Below are positions 31,549 to 36,530 of a stretch of DNA of 64,000 nucleotides, in pieces. Made by a program: the position numbers and the translations under genes. How positions within the stretch are numbered: position 1 is the stretch's first letter; the number at the start of each line of letters is the position of its first letter. The stretch comes from Oscillospiraceae bacterium (GTDB lineage: Bacteria > Bacillota > Clostridia > Oscillospirales > Ruminococcaceae). The notes below the pieces were generated by a model. That model worked only from the letters and a program-made list of their open reading frames with translations. It had not been told where the DNA came from and made no database searches. Location of the stretch: assembly GCA_021199355.1 (NCBI GenBank), contig JAJQIF010000029.1, positions 1 to 64,000 on the forward strand, in the 5' to 3' direction.

Positions 31549-31625
31549 TATATGTAGAAATATTGTCCACGATATGGGCATATTGTAATTTCAAAAACAA
31601 AAAAATCACCCATGGAGGAAAGACT

Positions 31626-32579
31626 ATGAAGAAATTTATCTCACTGCTCTTAGCGGCAGTAATGCTCCTGAGCCTCGTCGGCTGTGGAAGCACATCGACA
31701 GGCGAGTATCCCGACGGGGATATCGAAATCATCATCCCCTATAAGGTCGGCGGAACGACTGACCTGGCGGTAAGAGGCGTTCTTGACGCTATCCCTGAGG
31801 ATGTTCTGAGCGTTGACATCACCGTCACCAACACAGTCGGCGGCTCGGGTCTTATCGGAACCGAGGAATTCATGCAAGCTGACGCTGACGGCTATACCCT
31901 GGGACTTCTTAACTGTGACCTCGTTCTCAACTATGTCACCGGCGCCACCGAAATCAACCCGATGGAAGACATGATTGCCCTCGGGTGCGTTGAGCAGGAC
32001 CCCTATTTCCTCCTTGCCGCTCAGAATGACAATTTCTCTACATTTGCGGAGTTCATCTCCTATGCCGAGGCTAATCCCGGCGAGCTCGTTGTAGGCGTTA
32101 CCGGCGTCGGAACCATTCCGAACCTTCTCGGAACCATCCTTACAACAGCAGGTCTTGACGTTCTCGTCGTTCCTTACGACTCTGCTCCCGACGCTATCGC
32201 CGCAGTTCTGGCGGGAGAGTCAGACATCTGCATCTCGGCTATGGCATCAGCCGCAGGTAACCTCGAGTCAGGCGACCTCATTGCTATCGCCGCCACCTCT
32301 TCGGCACGCTCCGAGACCTTGCCCGACGTTCCCACAATGGCAGAGACTGACGACAGATTCGCGGATGTAAACCTCCTGAGCTGGATTATGATTGCCGTTC
32401 CTGCGGGAACCGACGACGAAATCGTCGATTTCTGGAAGTCGGCTATTGCGGACGCTGTCGCCTCCGACGACTATGCGGAAACAAGAGAGAGCTTCTATTT
32501 CGAGTCGATTACTCTTACCGCCGATGACCTCGACGACTTTGTAAACGAACAGGCTGATTACTACAAGACACTGACCTGA
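31626..32579 (+). CDS. tctC: Tripartite tricarboxylate transporter substrate-binding lipoprotein (TctC/Bug family)
   Basis: 317 aa, ATG 31626 after CATGGAGG. Signal peptide with lipobox LVGC (Cys20). Bug-type fold: IIIPYKVGGTTDLAVR near the start (carboxylate-binding loop), VGGSGLIGTEEFMQ, PYDSAPDAIAAVLAGESDI. It binds a carboxylate outside the cell for the TctAB permease encoded just downstream. The ligand (citrate, another carboxylate or aromatic acid) cannot be read from the sequence. Confidence 0.92.
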   Translation: MKKFISLLLAAVMLLSLVGCGSTSTGEYPDGDIEIIIPYKVGGTTDLAVRGVLDAIPEDVLSVDITVTNTVGGSGLIGTEEFMQADADGYTLGLLNCDLVLNYVTGATEINPMEDMIALGCVEQDPYFLLAAQNDNFSTFAEFISYAEANPGELVVGVTGVGTIPNLLGTILTTAGLDVLVVPYDSAPDAIAAVLAGESDICISAMASAAGNLESGDLIAIAATSSARSETLPDVPTMAETDDRFADVNLLSWIMIAVPAGTDDEIVDFWKSAIADAVASDDYAETRESFYFESITLTADDLDDFVNEQADYYKTLT

Positions 32580-32580
32580 T

Positions 32581-33099
32581 ATGAAAAAGTATGATATCGG
32601 TGTCTCGATAGTTCTGATTTTAATTTCGATATATATGATGGTGACCGCCTCGGGCTATAACGAGGCGGTCAGCGGCACAGCTATGGGTCCGGGAGTCTGG
32701 GTTATCATCCTCTGCGTTATCATGATAATCCTTTCGGCGATTCTTCTTTTGCGTGCCCTGTTTGGGGACAAGCTGAAAAGCATGATGCAGAAGAAGTCAG
32801 AAGCCGCCGAAGCTCCTGAAGCTACGGCAGAAGCCGTTCCCGAAAAAATCTTCGACTTCAAGTCCCCCGGCATGAAGAGGCTTTACATAACCTTCGGAGT
32901 GCTGGCGGTATTCGTCCTGCTTCTTGAGCTCTTCGGATTCTATATTGCGGTGGCGTTCTTACTGCCGGCGATAATGGCTATCTTCGGCGAACGAAGATGG
33001 TGGATGATGCTCGCAGTCACCGCAGGAGCGCTTCTGTTCATATATGTCGTGTTTGTTTTATTCCTTAGCATCCGCCTGCCGCAAGGCATCATCTTCTGA
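32581..33099 (+). CDS. tctB: Tripartite tricarboxylate transporter small membrane subunit (TctB)
   Basis: 172 aa with four hydrophobic helices (about 5-22, 40-60, 100-120 and 130-165) and a charged cytoplasmic loop at 65-90, as usual for TctB. The start is one base after the tctC stop. Accessory subunit of the TctA permease. Confidence 0.88.
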   Translation: MKKYDIGVSIVLILISIYMMVTASGYNEAVSGTAMGPGVWVIILCVIMIILSAILLLRALFGDKLKSMMQKKSEAAEAPEATAEAVPEKIFDFKSPGMKRLYITFGVLAVFVLLLELFGFYIAVAFLLPAIMAIFGERRWWMMLAVTAGALLFIYVVFVLFLSIRLPQGIIF

Positions 33100-33116
33100 A
33101 CGCGTGAGGTAACAAA

Positions 33117-34622
33117 ATGCTTTCATCTTTACTTTCAGCAATTTCAACCGTCTTCACGCCGTTCAATCTCCTGCTCACGTTTGTCGGAGCGTTTTTCGGA
33201 GTGTTTATAGGTGCGATGCCCGGGCTCACCTCGATTATGGGCTTGAGCCTTCTTTTGCCGCTTACTCTCACTTTTGAGGGCAACAGCGGAATCCTGATGC
33301 TACTCGGAGTCTTCTGCGGCTTCATTTACGGCGGTTCAATAACCGCCATTCTCATTAAAACTCCCGGAACGGCGAACTCAGCCGCAACCGTCCTCGACGG
33401 CTATCCTCTGGCTCAGAAGGGCGAGGCAGCCAAGGCTCTCGGAGTTTCAACATTCGCTTCCACATTCGGAGGCATATTCAGTGCAATTATGCTCCTCTGG
33501 ACGGCTCCGCTTCTCTCAAAGGTTGCTCTGTCGTTCACATCTCCCGAATACTTCGCTCTCGCCGTTTTCGGAATCAGCATGGTCACCTCCCTTTCTTCGA
33601 AAAACATCCTGAAAGGGCTTATCAGTGCGGTTATCGGGCTCATGCTTGCGACCGTCGGAATGGACAGCCTGACCGGTGCGAAGAGGTTCACTTTTGATTC
33701 TACATATCTCCTCGGCGGAATTGCGATGGTTCCGGTTTTAATCGGGCTCTACGCATTCTCGCAGGGGCTTTCGAATATCGTCGAGGGGAACAAGGTGCCC
33801 GTCAAGTCGAAGGAGAAAATCAAGCACACCTTCCCCACTCCAAAAATTATCAAGAAGATTATGCCGACGGTTCTTCGGTCGGGCATTATTGGCACCGTAA
33901 TCGGCGCAATTCCCGGCACCGGCGGCGACATCGCCTGCTGGACTGCTTATAACGAGACGAAGCGTTGGGACAAGCACCCGGAGGAGTTCGGCACCGGCAG
34001 AGTCGAGGGCGTTGCGGCTCCCGAAGCGGCAAACAACGCCATCTCGGGCGGTGCTCTGATTCCCCTTCTGACGCTCGGCATCCCCGGAGACGCCGGAACG
34101 GCAATCATGCTCGGAGCTCTCATGATGCAAGGAATCGTCCCCGGACCGCTTCTCTTCACGTCCGAGCAGGAAAAGGTCTATATCATCATCGTCGGGCTTT
34201 TCGTCGCGAACATCTTCATGGGCATAATCGGCTTCAGCGGAATCCGGCTCTTTGCGAAGATTTCCGCAGTCAGCACCAGATTCTTAACGCCGATTGTGTT
34301 CGTATTCTGCATTGTCGGAACCTATGCCCTCAATTCAAACGTAAACGACATTTTCCTGATGTTTATCGTGGGAATACTTGCATACTTCCTGCAGAAGCTT
34401 GACTTCCCGATGCCGCCGATTGTCCTTAGGCTCATCCTCGGCAGTACGCTTGAAAAGAATCTCCAGAGAACGCTTATCTTAAGCGACGGAGACTTCTCGA
34501 TCTTCCTTCAGAGACCGATTGCACTGTGCCTCCTCATCGCCGCCTTTGCGTCGATATTTGTCCCGCCGGTTATCAATCTTGTTAAGAAGAGAAGGGCGAA
34601 GAAAGCGGCTGTGGCGGAATAA
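33117..34622 (+). CDS. tctA: Tripartite tricarboxylate transporter large permease (TctA)
   Basis: 501 aa, about 11-12 helices. Family motifs: GAMPGLTSIMGLSLLLPLTL at the first re-entrant loop, KTPGTANSAATVLDGYPLAQKGEA, and the internal repeat GAIPGTGGDIACWTAYNETK and GIPGDAGTAIMLGAL. It catalyses ion-driven uptake of the solute delivered by TctC. Followed by a strong terminator at 34671-34701. The short AT stretch 34629-34661 before it is an ATAAATAT-type repeat. Confidence 0.93.
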   Translation: MLSSLLSAISTVFTPFNLLLTFVGAFFGVFIGAMPGLTSIMGLSLLLPLTLTFEGNSGILMLLGVFCGFIYGGSITAILIKTPGTANSAATVLDGYPLAQKGEAAKALGVSTFASTFGGIFSAIMLLWTAPLLSKVALSFTSPEYFALAVFGISMVTSLSSKNILKGLISAVIGLMLATVGMDSLTGAKRFTFDSTYLLGGIAMVPVLIGLYAFSQGLSNIVEGNKVPVKSKEKIKHTFPTPKIIKKIMPTVLRSGIIGTVIGAIPGTGGDIACWTAYNETKRWDKHPEEFGTGRVEGVAAPEAANNAISGGALIPLLTLGIPGDAGTAIMLGALMMQGIVPGPLLFTSEQEKVYIIIVGLFVANIFMGIIGFSGIRLFAKISAVSTRFLTPIVFVFCIVGTYALNSNVNDIFLMFIVGILAYFLQKLDFPMPPIVLRLILGSTLEKNLQRTLILSDGDFSIFLQRPIALCLLIAAFASIFVPPVINLVKKRRAKKAAVAE

Positions 34623-34815: not shown

Positions 34816-35379
34816 TCATAGGAGCTTTACCATCGAAATCTCGTCAAGAAGCGTGCCGTCGGCGAGTTTGACGGCGTTCGGCTTGCGGGCGACTTCCTTA
34901 AAGCCCATTTTTGTGTAGAGACCGAGTGCCCGGGTGTTGCCCTCGAGGTAGTCAAGCTCAATCTGCATGATTCCGCCACGCTCATAGGCGTTCTGGATGA
35001 GCTCATTGAACATGGCAGTGCCGATGCCGAGACCCCAGTACTTTTTGATAAGACCGACGCCGACAGTGGCACGATGGGCGGTTTTGAGACGGGTGTTGTA
35101 GCTGATAGAGCAGTTCCCGGCAAGTTCGCCGTCGACGAAGCAACAAATCATCAGCTTGTCGGGGCTCGAGATATTGTCTCCGATAATCTCTTCCTCTCTC
35201 TTCAAGCCTTCCTCGCCTTCCCATCTTTCGGATTCCCTCGGGTCAGACATGAGAAAATCGGTCTCGGTGGCGGTGGTGAGGAGATAGTTGATAAGAGCCG
35301 GGCAATCGGAGAGCTCGGGACTGCGGAAAACGGCTTCGCGACCGTCTTTAAGGGTTATTGTTTTGGGTGGGAATGTCAT
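34816..35379 (-). CDS. GNAT family N-acetyltransferase
   Basis: 187 aa. Acetyl-CoA binding region VGVGLIKKYWGLGIGTAMF (near residue 108) and the following IELDYLEGNTRALGLYTKMGF are typical of GNAT enzymes of the RimI/SpeG-like kind. The substrate is unknown. Its ATG overlaps the stop of the toxin remnant (ATGA, 35376-35379), so it may be transcribed from the antitoxin promoter at 35776-35804. Confidence 0.85.
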   Translation of the reverse strand: MTFPPKTITLKDGREAVFRSPELSDCPALINYLLTTATETDFLMSDPRESERWEGEEGLKREEEIIGDNISSPDKLMICCFVDGELAGNCSISYNTRLKTAHRATVGVGLIKKYWGLGIGTAMFNELIQNAYERGGIMQIELDYLEGNTRALGLYTKMGFKEVARKPNAVKLADGTLLDEISMVKLL

Positions 35380-35672
35380 GGTGTTGTCCTTTCTTTGTCT
35401 ATGTATTCTTCATACGCCTGTTCAAGCAATTTGAAATCGCAACTGTTATCGGTTAAGATTTGCTTGCGGTTTGTCACAACCATGTTGTAAATCTTCTCTG
35501 CCTTTTTCTGAATCCGTTCGGAATTGTTCTGACAGAAGCGGTACTCTTTATCCAGAAGTCTTCTGTACCTCTCGTCCGAAATATCCTTATTTCCTCCGAT
35601 AAAACTATAGGGCGACAAGAAACTTGCCTCCCTACAAATAAGGTTCGCATTCAAAGCAGCGAAGCACTTCAA
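35376..35672 (-). pseudogene. Truncated type III toxin (ToxN/AbiQ-like C-terminal part)
   Basis: The last 70 residues read like the end of ToxN/AbiQ endoribonucleases: SDERYRRLLDKEYRFCQNNS, then ERIQKKAEKIYNM and CDFKLLEQAYEEYI (compare the ToxN end with YKRMLYKQLQFIRANSDKI and CNFSLLEEKY, quoted from memory). An intact toxin has about 100 further residues upstream. Here the frame instead runs back into a ribosome site (GGAGG at about 35590), a terminator and the antitoxin repeats, and no ATG stands at the expected distance. A deletion from the start codon to the C-terminal third is the simplest reading. The peptide opening at 35672 is non-homologous. A short internal start could still make a fragment. 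Confidence 0.7.
35601..35632 (-). terminator. Terminator between type III antitoxin repeats and toxin
   Basis: Minus strand GGGAGGCAAG-TTT-CTTGTCGCCC (plus 35610-35632; one mismatch, one G-U pair) followed by TATAGTTTTA. In ToxIN-type loci a leaky terminator sits at this place and sets the ratio of antitoxin RNA to toxin mRNA. Confidence 0.6.
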
Positions 35673-35770
35673 TTAACGGTCACATTCAGAGCAGTGAAGC
35701 GCTCAAATTAAGGTTCGCACTCAAAGTAGCGATGCTCTTAAATGAACTGAGGCGCATCGCCTCTTGTTCA
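35633..35770 (-). ncRNA. Type III antitoxin RNA with three 35-nt repeats
   Basis: Three contiguous degenerate repeats of exactly 35 nt lie at plus 35642-35676, 35677-35711 and 35712-35746. On the RNA strand each begins TT(A/C)ATT and ends near GAACC or GACCG. A small perfect hairpin (GAGGCG-ATG-CGCCTC, plus 35749-35763) precedes them. There are no spacers, so it is not a CRISPR array. Promoter, repeats, terminator, then toxin is the layout of type III toxin-antitoxin loci; the lactococcal AbiQ antitoxin is recalled as also having just under three 35-nt repeats. Confidence 0.75.
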
Positions 35771-35775
35771 CTTAT

Positions 35776-35804
35776 ATTATACGCGATAATTCTCGAAAAT
35801 GCAA
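35776..35804 (-). promoter_or_regulatory. Promoter of the antitoxin RNA
   Basis: Minus strand TTGCAT (plus 35799-35804), 17 bp, TATAAT (plus 35776-35781). Predicted start near 35769, just before the 5' hairpin. Confidence 0.8.
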
Positions 35805-35831
35805 TAGGTTTTGAGAAAAAATTTCGATTTA

Positions 35832-36530
35832 TCAAGACCTGTTTTTCTGTCCGTAGTAGGCATTCGCTCCATGTTTTCTTAAGTAATGCCTGTCGAGGAG
35901 CTCCTGTTGCATAGGCTGGAGGTCGGGGTTGAGGGCGTAGGCACGGATTGCCATCTTGGCACATTCTTCGAGGATTACGGCATGGTGAACCGAGTCGACG
36001 GCGTTCTTGCCCCAGGTGAACGGTCCGTGAGAATTGACGAGGACGGCGGGGATGGCGTCGGGGTCCTTGTCCTTGAAGGTCTCGATGATGACGAGACCGG
36101 TGTTCTTTTCGTATTCGCCGGCGATTTCCTCGGGGGTCATCTTCCTTGTGCAGGGGATTTCGCCATAGAAATAGTCGCCGTGGGTCGTGCCGAGTGCCGG
36201 GATTCCCCTTCCCGCCTGTGCAAACGAGGTCGCATAGGACGAGTGGGTGTGGGTGACGCCGCCGATATTTGGGAAAGCCTTGTAGAATTCGACGTGGGTC
36301 GGAGTGTCTGACGACGGATTCAGGTCTCCCTCAACGACTTTGCCGTTCAAATCCACGACAACCATGTCTTCCGGCTTCATCACGTCATACTCAACTCCCG
36401 AGGGCTTGATGACGACAAGCCCGCTCTCACGATCGATTCCCGAGACGTTGCCCCAGGTGAAGGTGACGAGTCCGTACTTCGGGAGGAGCATATTAGCCTC
36501 CCAGACCTCTTTTTTCAGTTGTTCCAGCAT
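35832..36530 (-). CDS. araD: L-ribulose-5-phosphate 4-epimerase
   Basis: 232 aa class II aldolase-fold enzyme. [20 protein letters not shown] and IKPSGVEYD bind phosphate, THTHSSYA (near residue 94) and the later His pair supply metal ligands, and SHGPFTWG is the conserved AraD motif. Converts L-ribulose-5-phosphate to D-xylulose-5-phosphate in arabinose use. No araA or araB is present in the window. SD GGAAG before ATG 36530. The gap to the phosphodiesterase stop is 61 bp, so a separate weak promoter (TTGACA near plus 36586) is possible. Confidence 0.93.

Follow-up and report, generated by a model that had tools for sequence, protein, structure and literature searches.

In the window (the whole 64,000-nt stretch of gut-bacterial DNA analysed here), a phage-defence toxin-antitoxin locus of type III, on the minus strand at positions 35804–35376, was probably inactivated recently and toxin first; its ToxI antitoxin RNA is intact and probably still competent. 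Comparison with relatives shows that the deletion has removed ToxN's start codon along with its catalytic half, and that the pseudoknot pairs are retained in the three ToxI repeats. ToxI is presumably still transcribed. Without a ToxN of its own type it would remain an unprocessed precursor, which could be cut by, and could neutralise, a ToxN of that type arriving later. The ToxI precursor is cut by ToxN itself and is also neutralising, as described in PMC5086642; thus even an orphan ToxI that has not been processed should be able to disarm a cognate ToxN.

Loss of the toxin first is expected because prior loss of the short-lived antitoxin would set the toxin free, whereas the toxin can be lost harmlessly. 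Loci with a dead toxin and an intact antitoxin would represent the expected first stage of decay, and the window locus fits this. A reading of the sequence alone (the sequence-only reading) had left the surviving antitoxin between decay and neutralisation of toxins of incoming elements. Decay is the simpler reading of the two; a selected anti-addiction role of the window ToxI is possible.

Layout of the locus and its toxin remnant

The toxI promoter (35776–35804, minus strand, as are all features below) is found by direct reading, with TTGCAT starting at 35804, a 17-nt spacer and TATAAT starting at 35781. It is followed by the predicted leader hairpin of the ToxI transcript (35742–35771), toxI itself, consisting of three contiguous 35-nt antitoxin repeats (35638–35742) identified by reading of the repeats and by their pseudoknot pairs, and a predicted terminator-like hairpin between toxI and toxN (35609–35633) with a short T tract after the stem. 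A Shine-Dalgarno GGAGG (35593–35597), recognised by alignment with the full-length ortholog in the related genome G007, is orphaned by deletion of its start codon. The toxN remnant (35376–35588) consists of the C-terminal 70 codons and the stop, as given by Pfam, PADLOC and the G007 alignment. The remnant stop overlaps, in the sequence ATGA, the start of a GNAT acetyltransferase gene (34816–35379; PF00583, E = 5.9e-13). Upstream lies a class II aldolase-like gene (35832–36530; PF00596, E = 6.4e-53), which is a syntenic neighbour only. A tandem-repeat RNA is situated directly 5′ of the toxN remnant under one predicted promoter, and the promoter, 5′ hairpin, three repeats, terminator-like hairpin and ribosome site of the sequence-only reading are all confirmed. 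The terminator-like hairpin is present as described, but its stem is not intact: a change at 35613 in the window lineage produces one mismatched pair. By eye, three genes adjacent to the locus (31563–34622) resemble a tripartite tricarboxylate transporter, with a binding protein and small and large membrane subunits.

The ToxI transcript shows a predicted fold with a minimum free energy of −55.8 kcal/mol (z = −3.15), which none of 200 shuffles equals. The fold contains both the leader hairpin (35771–35742) and the terminator stem (35633–35609). The leader hairpin carries a 12-nt extension in the window and G007 that is absent from G010, G011 and G015, the other genomes of the five aligned. A search of Rfam gave no family at gathering score in the whole window and none at E ≤ 1 in positions 35300–36000, and the antitoxin was accordingly identified from its architecture, its relatives and covariation.

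The A/T-rich block at 35776–35824 and the toxI hexamers resemble blocks found before two other genes of the genus (L055 and L057), by eye one radC-like and one pgk-like. From this likeness the toxI promoter seems to be a strong promoter of the housekeeping type, as predicted from sequence. Weak promoter-only matches are found in the genus in G009, G017, G018 and G010:C13. Three of these were examined (G017:C47, G009 and G018); two are promoter blocks before ordinary genes, a repeat array is found in none of the three, and they were set aside.

The remnant matches the Pfam ToxN_toxin profile PF13958 (E = 1.2e-18, 68.2 bits against a cut-off of 25), only over positions 98–159 of 159, and the PADLOC AbiQ profile (E = 3.9e-16). 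The protein-like portion of the open frame is restricted to its last 70 residues. The last ~70 residues of a ToxN/AbiQ-like protein had been proposed here, with lack of a family match named as grounds for dropping the proposal; the match is present. Relative to G007, the window is without 297 bp comprising the start codon and codons 1–99, so the search of related genomes that had been suggested for the full-length locus places the deletion. The deletion ends have an imperfect 5-nt repeat in common. The full-length G007 ToxN matches the PDB ToxN structures 4ato, 2xd0 and 7d8o and AbiQ 4glk. The E. coli ToxN active-site residues named in PMC8860590 (K33, T52, S53 and K55), when aligned through PDB ToxN sequences, all fall within the lost codons 1–99. 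An AlphaFold model of the intact G007 ToxN, made with no alignment supplied, gave a pLDDT of 38.3 and was left unused.

No ATG, GTG or TTG is found within 25 nt 3′ of the Shine-Dalgarno at the window locus, and the TTG start of the listed open reading frame (35672) falls inside repeat 3. Thus the remnant is probably not translated.

The window deletion is seen in one genome only. Should the window derive from a metagenome-assembled genome, the deletion might be an artefact of assembly or strain mixture; the division of the genome into 30 contigs, together with the MAG label on some contigs of the genus, would fit this. It is nonetheless very unlikely, given that the junction is internal to a 67.8-kb contig and is flanked on either side by other differences from G007, and that a comparable N-terminal loss behind ToxI is found in G012/G013 and in G531.

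In its promoter, tandem pseudoknot repeats, intergenic terminator and ToxN/AbiQ-family gene the locus is the same as ToxIN/AbiQ systems (Pectobacterium ToxIN, Lactococcus AbiQ, E. coli ToxIN). It differs from these in that the window toxin is without start codon, residues 1–99 and catalytic site, leaving no working toxin-antitoxin pair. The identification as a type III locus with complete antitoxin and truncated toxin is borne out by the profile matches, the full-length G007 ortholog and the pseudoknot pairs. No report of a toxin-less type III locus is found among the literature matches listed, which cover titles and the starts of abstracts in a search that reads 'toxIN' as 'toxin' and do not imply absence from print.

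The ToxI repeats and their relatives

None of 100 mononucleotide shuffles of the sequence upstream of the window locus reaches its repeat score. Each toxI repeat can form an H-type pseudoknot with a 3-bp stem (positions 3–5 with 16–18 of the repeat unit) and a 4-bp stem (10–13 with 24–27), and all seven pairs are possible in every window repeat. The seven pairs form in 15 of 15 repeats from five genomes, i.e. 9 distinct repeats with 63 of 63 cells paired. When the model is shifted by 1 to 3 columns, pairing reaches 52% of cells at most; this comparison favours the unshifted model, which was drawn from the three window repeats and counted on repeats that include them. The per cent paired and the covariation score are reached by 0 of 500 shuffles. 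Each stem displays one pair with changes on both sides; on two measures, however, shuffles match or beat the repeats, these being the number of pairs with double-sided changes (303 of 500) and of further pair types (500 of 500). In each of the five genomes both double changes distinguish repeat 2 from the other two repeats, and either change may be a single old event. RNAalifold on the whole transcript gives 50 pairs, none with changes on both sides; the program draws no pseudoknots, and the covariation reported here is between repeats, not between genomes. The repeats are conserved in four relatives, a point on which the sequence-only reading had made its own proposal depend.

A search of 31 genomes of the genus with PF13958 shows 13 ToxN loci in 9 genomes, three of the 13 in the window genome (G000). 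G007 has a full-length ToxN at the same site, with 96–97% DNA identity, the aldolase gene upstream and the GNAT gene downstream. The locus is also syntenic in G010 and G015. The G011 copy is found at a different site, which indicates that the ToxI/ToxN cassette can occupy another position.

The toxN stop/GNAT start overlap (ATGA) is found in the intact loci of G007, G010 and G015. Because intact relatives carry the same overlap, it is by this comparison ancestral and not created by the truncation, and the earlier suggestion that a GNAT gene had been joined behind the toxin stop does not hold. The GNAT gene is an ancestral neighbour and probably lies outside the toxin-antitoxin system.

Differences between the window and G007 number 62/699 in the aldolase gene, 5/217 in ToxI plus UTR, 8/219 in the remnant and 49/564 in the GNAT gene; since the G007 locus is intact, its own selection also holds divergence low, and the comparison dates the loss only inexactly. 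When changes are polarised with three further genomes besides the window and G007, just two in the ToxI transcript are clearly of the window lineage: 35714, outside the pseudoknot stems, and the terminator stem change at 35613. As to the remaining differences, 35731 is on the G007 side and 35762 is assignable to neither. Persistence of ToxI at the window locus would come mainly from the recency of toxin loss.

Possible selection on ToxI after loss of the toxin

The other reading is that ToxI is a solitary antitoxin kept by selection, for the neutralisation of same-type ToxN carried by mobile elements or neighbours (anti-addiction). We consider this unlikely for the window locus. It would agree with the seven pairs being kept in all three window repeats, and with the presence of intact toxins next to this ToxI type in four relatives from the genus, in G011 at a different site. 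For phage PhiTE, PMC5449768 describes escape mutants whose pseudo-ToxI, with no toxin gene accompanying it, suppressed ToxN. The PhiTE element likewise consists of ToxI-like repeats without a toxin gene; it is viral and arose from expansion of a mimic, whereas the window ToxI is bacterial and arose from deletion of the toxin. Solitary antitoxins are discussed for protein (type II) antitoxins in PMC7354431, where a chromosomal CcdA is reported as an anti-addiction antitoxin. The Erwinia CcdA orphan described there is likewise an antitoxin without a working cognate toxin. The window antitoxin differs in being a predicted RNA that would bind the toxin protein, and it is known here from sequence.

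Two natural comparisons bear on the question. In the first, two species, G012 and G013 (loci L019, G012:C29, and L021, G013:C32), have a common in-frame ToxN deletion, not the same as that of the window, in which the start codon and Shine-Dalgarno are kept; G008 carries a full-length version of the same toxin gene. Between G012 and G013 the promoter, ToxI and UTR show 0 changes in 252 positions versus 8 in 297 for the toxin remnant (Fisher p = 0.009), with ToxI identical across 180 nt, and the least diverged intact pair (G000:C14 and G013:C1) has 5 changes in 179 nt of ToxI. This is a counter-hint that a toxin-less ToxI can be selected and that drift is perhaps not everything. The four nearest neighbour genes, which were the author's choice among the listed frames, show dS of 0.10–0.29 and two farther genes 0.39 and 0.53, and divergence in the region is a mosaic. 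The G012/G013 tract itself is thus young, and the selection result comes from one pair with 8 events in a mosaic region, which counts against giving it great weight.

The same pair bears on a further explanation, in which the C-terminal remnant functions as a mini-protein in its own right, binding or stabilising ToxI by the kinked helix. The long kinked helix of ToxN is a main ToxI contact according to PMC5086642, and from its sequence the retained part appears to contain this helix; the G012/G013 mini-ORF, furthermore, keeps its start codon and Shine-Dalgarno. However, the start codon is gone in the window, none is visible behind the Shine-Dalgarno in G531, and the 8 changes in the G012/G013 mini-toxin are 7 nonsynonymous and 1 synonymous, no departure from the neutral expectation of 0.78 nonsynonymous. 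Ten intact pairs display dN/dS of 0.03–0.10 over the last 88 codons. G008 compared with either mini-toxin gives dN/dS of 0.09–0.11, which is mostly older divergence. A functional mini-protein is accordingly most improbable.

The second comparison, of G956 and G976, runs in the opposite direction. Both have a broken ToxN, possibly broken only after their common ancestor, and ToxI shows 10 changes in 116 positions versus 5 in 237 for the toxin C-terminus (p = 0.009). The flanks differ at 7/300 upstream and 0/741 downstream. The selection tests on toxin-less ToxI therefore conflict, G012/G013 for and G956/G976 against. These loci are part of a related group, L141–L143 (G956:C8, G1130:C3, G976:C1), which shows two open frames in G956 and G1130 and an N-terminal loss in G976.

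Cognate toxins and the frequency of broken ToxN

The window genome (1.86 Mb) contains two further intact ToxIN loci (L001, G000:C12:7649-8179, and L002, G000:C14:49555-50094), with ToxI arrays of 41–42-nt repeats, for a total of three type III loci. The window ToxI was rejected as a partner of these two ToxN, as the repeat lengths differ and DNA matches are at or below chance level. No working cognate toxin is found in G000, where the window ToxI matches only itself beyond chance level. Among the 31 genomes of the genus the window ToxI type is present in five, the other four having it before a full ToxN. A model of the window-type ToxI with stricter filters gives hits in 2 of 197 genomes of a family sample, the window's own and G165 (a weak match, before an intact ToxN).

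On mobile DNA no close cognate ToxN is found: the matches number 3 among 50,697 phage records and 157 among 72,556 plasmid records, all distant, with <60% identity. In viral contigs a ToxN relative is confirmed in none, and one 24-base repeat pattern gave no match. This lack of a close cognate in phages, plasmids and viral contigs weighs against a selected window ToxI.

Type III systems were reportedly surveyed by Blower and colleagues in 2012. Four overlapping PF13958 searches were made here, of 31 genus, 395 family, 394 order and 391 class genomes. Pieces of one gene were merged and 107 ToxN loci were labelled by hand, with 75 intact, 28 broken or partial and 4 interrupted by a contig end or lying too close to one. 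Doubtful among the 28 are G431, with one stop close to its end; G918 and G1031, whose open frames match profile 43–157; G371 and G1080, which score under the family cut-off; and a pair of G868 loci with one stop each. Doubtful among the 75 intact are G051 and G118:C171, where the match ends at profile positions 146 and 141. Many of the toxins in a profile-based count of type III systems are thus dead, here 28 of 107 as labelled.

Upstream repeat arrays were sought by a test in which the score must be better than all of 100 shuffles and which is conservative, as the G956/G976 repeats, visible by eye, fail it. An array is detected at 57 of the 75 intact loci and at 14 of the 28 broken ones. The lower frequency at broken loci argues against a selected ToxI; once the toxin is dead, arrays seem to disappear with time, but half can still be detected. 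A general preservation of ToxI after the death of the toxin was considered and is unsupported by these counts and by G956/G976. The array goes undetected by the simple test in 18 of the 75 loci labelled intact, e.g. G662, G674, G584 and G1045:C59; these 18 may have diverged repeats or an antitoxin of another form.

A broader proposal is that in gut Clostridia type III loci repeatedly become RNA-only antitoxin loci by deletion of the catalytic half, the pseudoknot RNA being selected as heritable immunity versus ToxIN of relatives and mobile elements. We regard this as rather unlikely. Toxin-less loci such as that of the window are natural RNA counterparts of the solitary protein antitoxins, with intact toxins of the same ToxI type in sister species. 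Since these intact toxins exist, the protection given by a lone ToxI versus an incoming ToxIN is directly testable, as is whether a locus that has lost its toxin is at a dead end or persists stably.

Deletions of more than one form are visible by eye among the broken loci. N-terminal loss of ToxN behind ToxI, as in the window, is also found in G531 and G976, and internal ToxN deletions are found in G393:C134, G165:C10, G1029:C65 and G799:C233.
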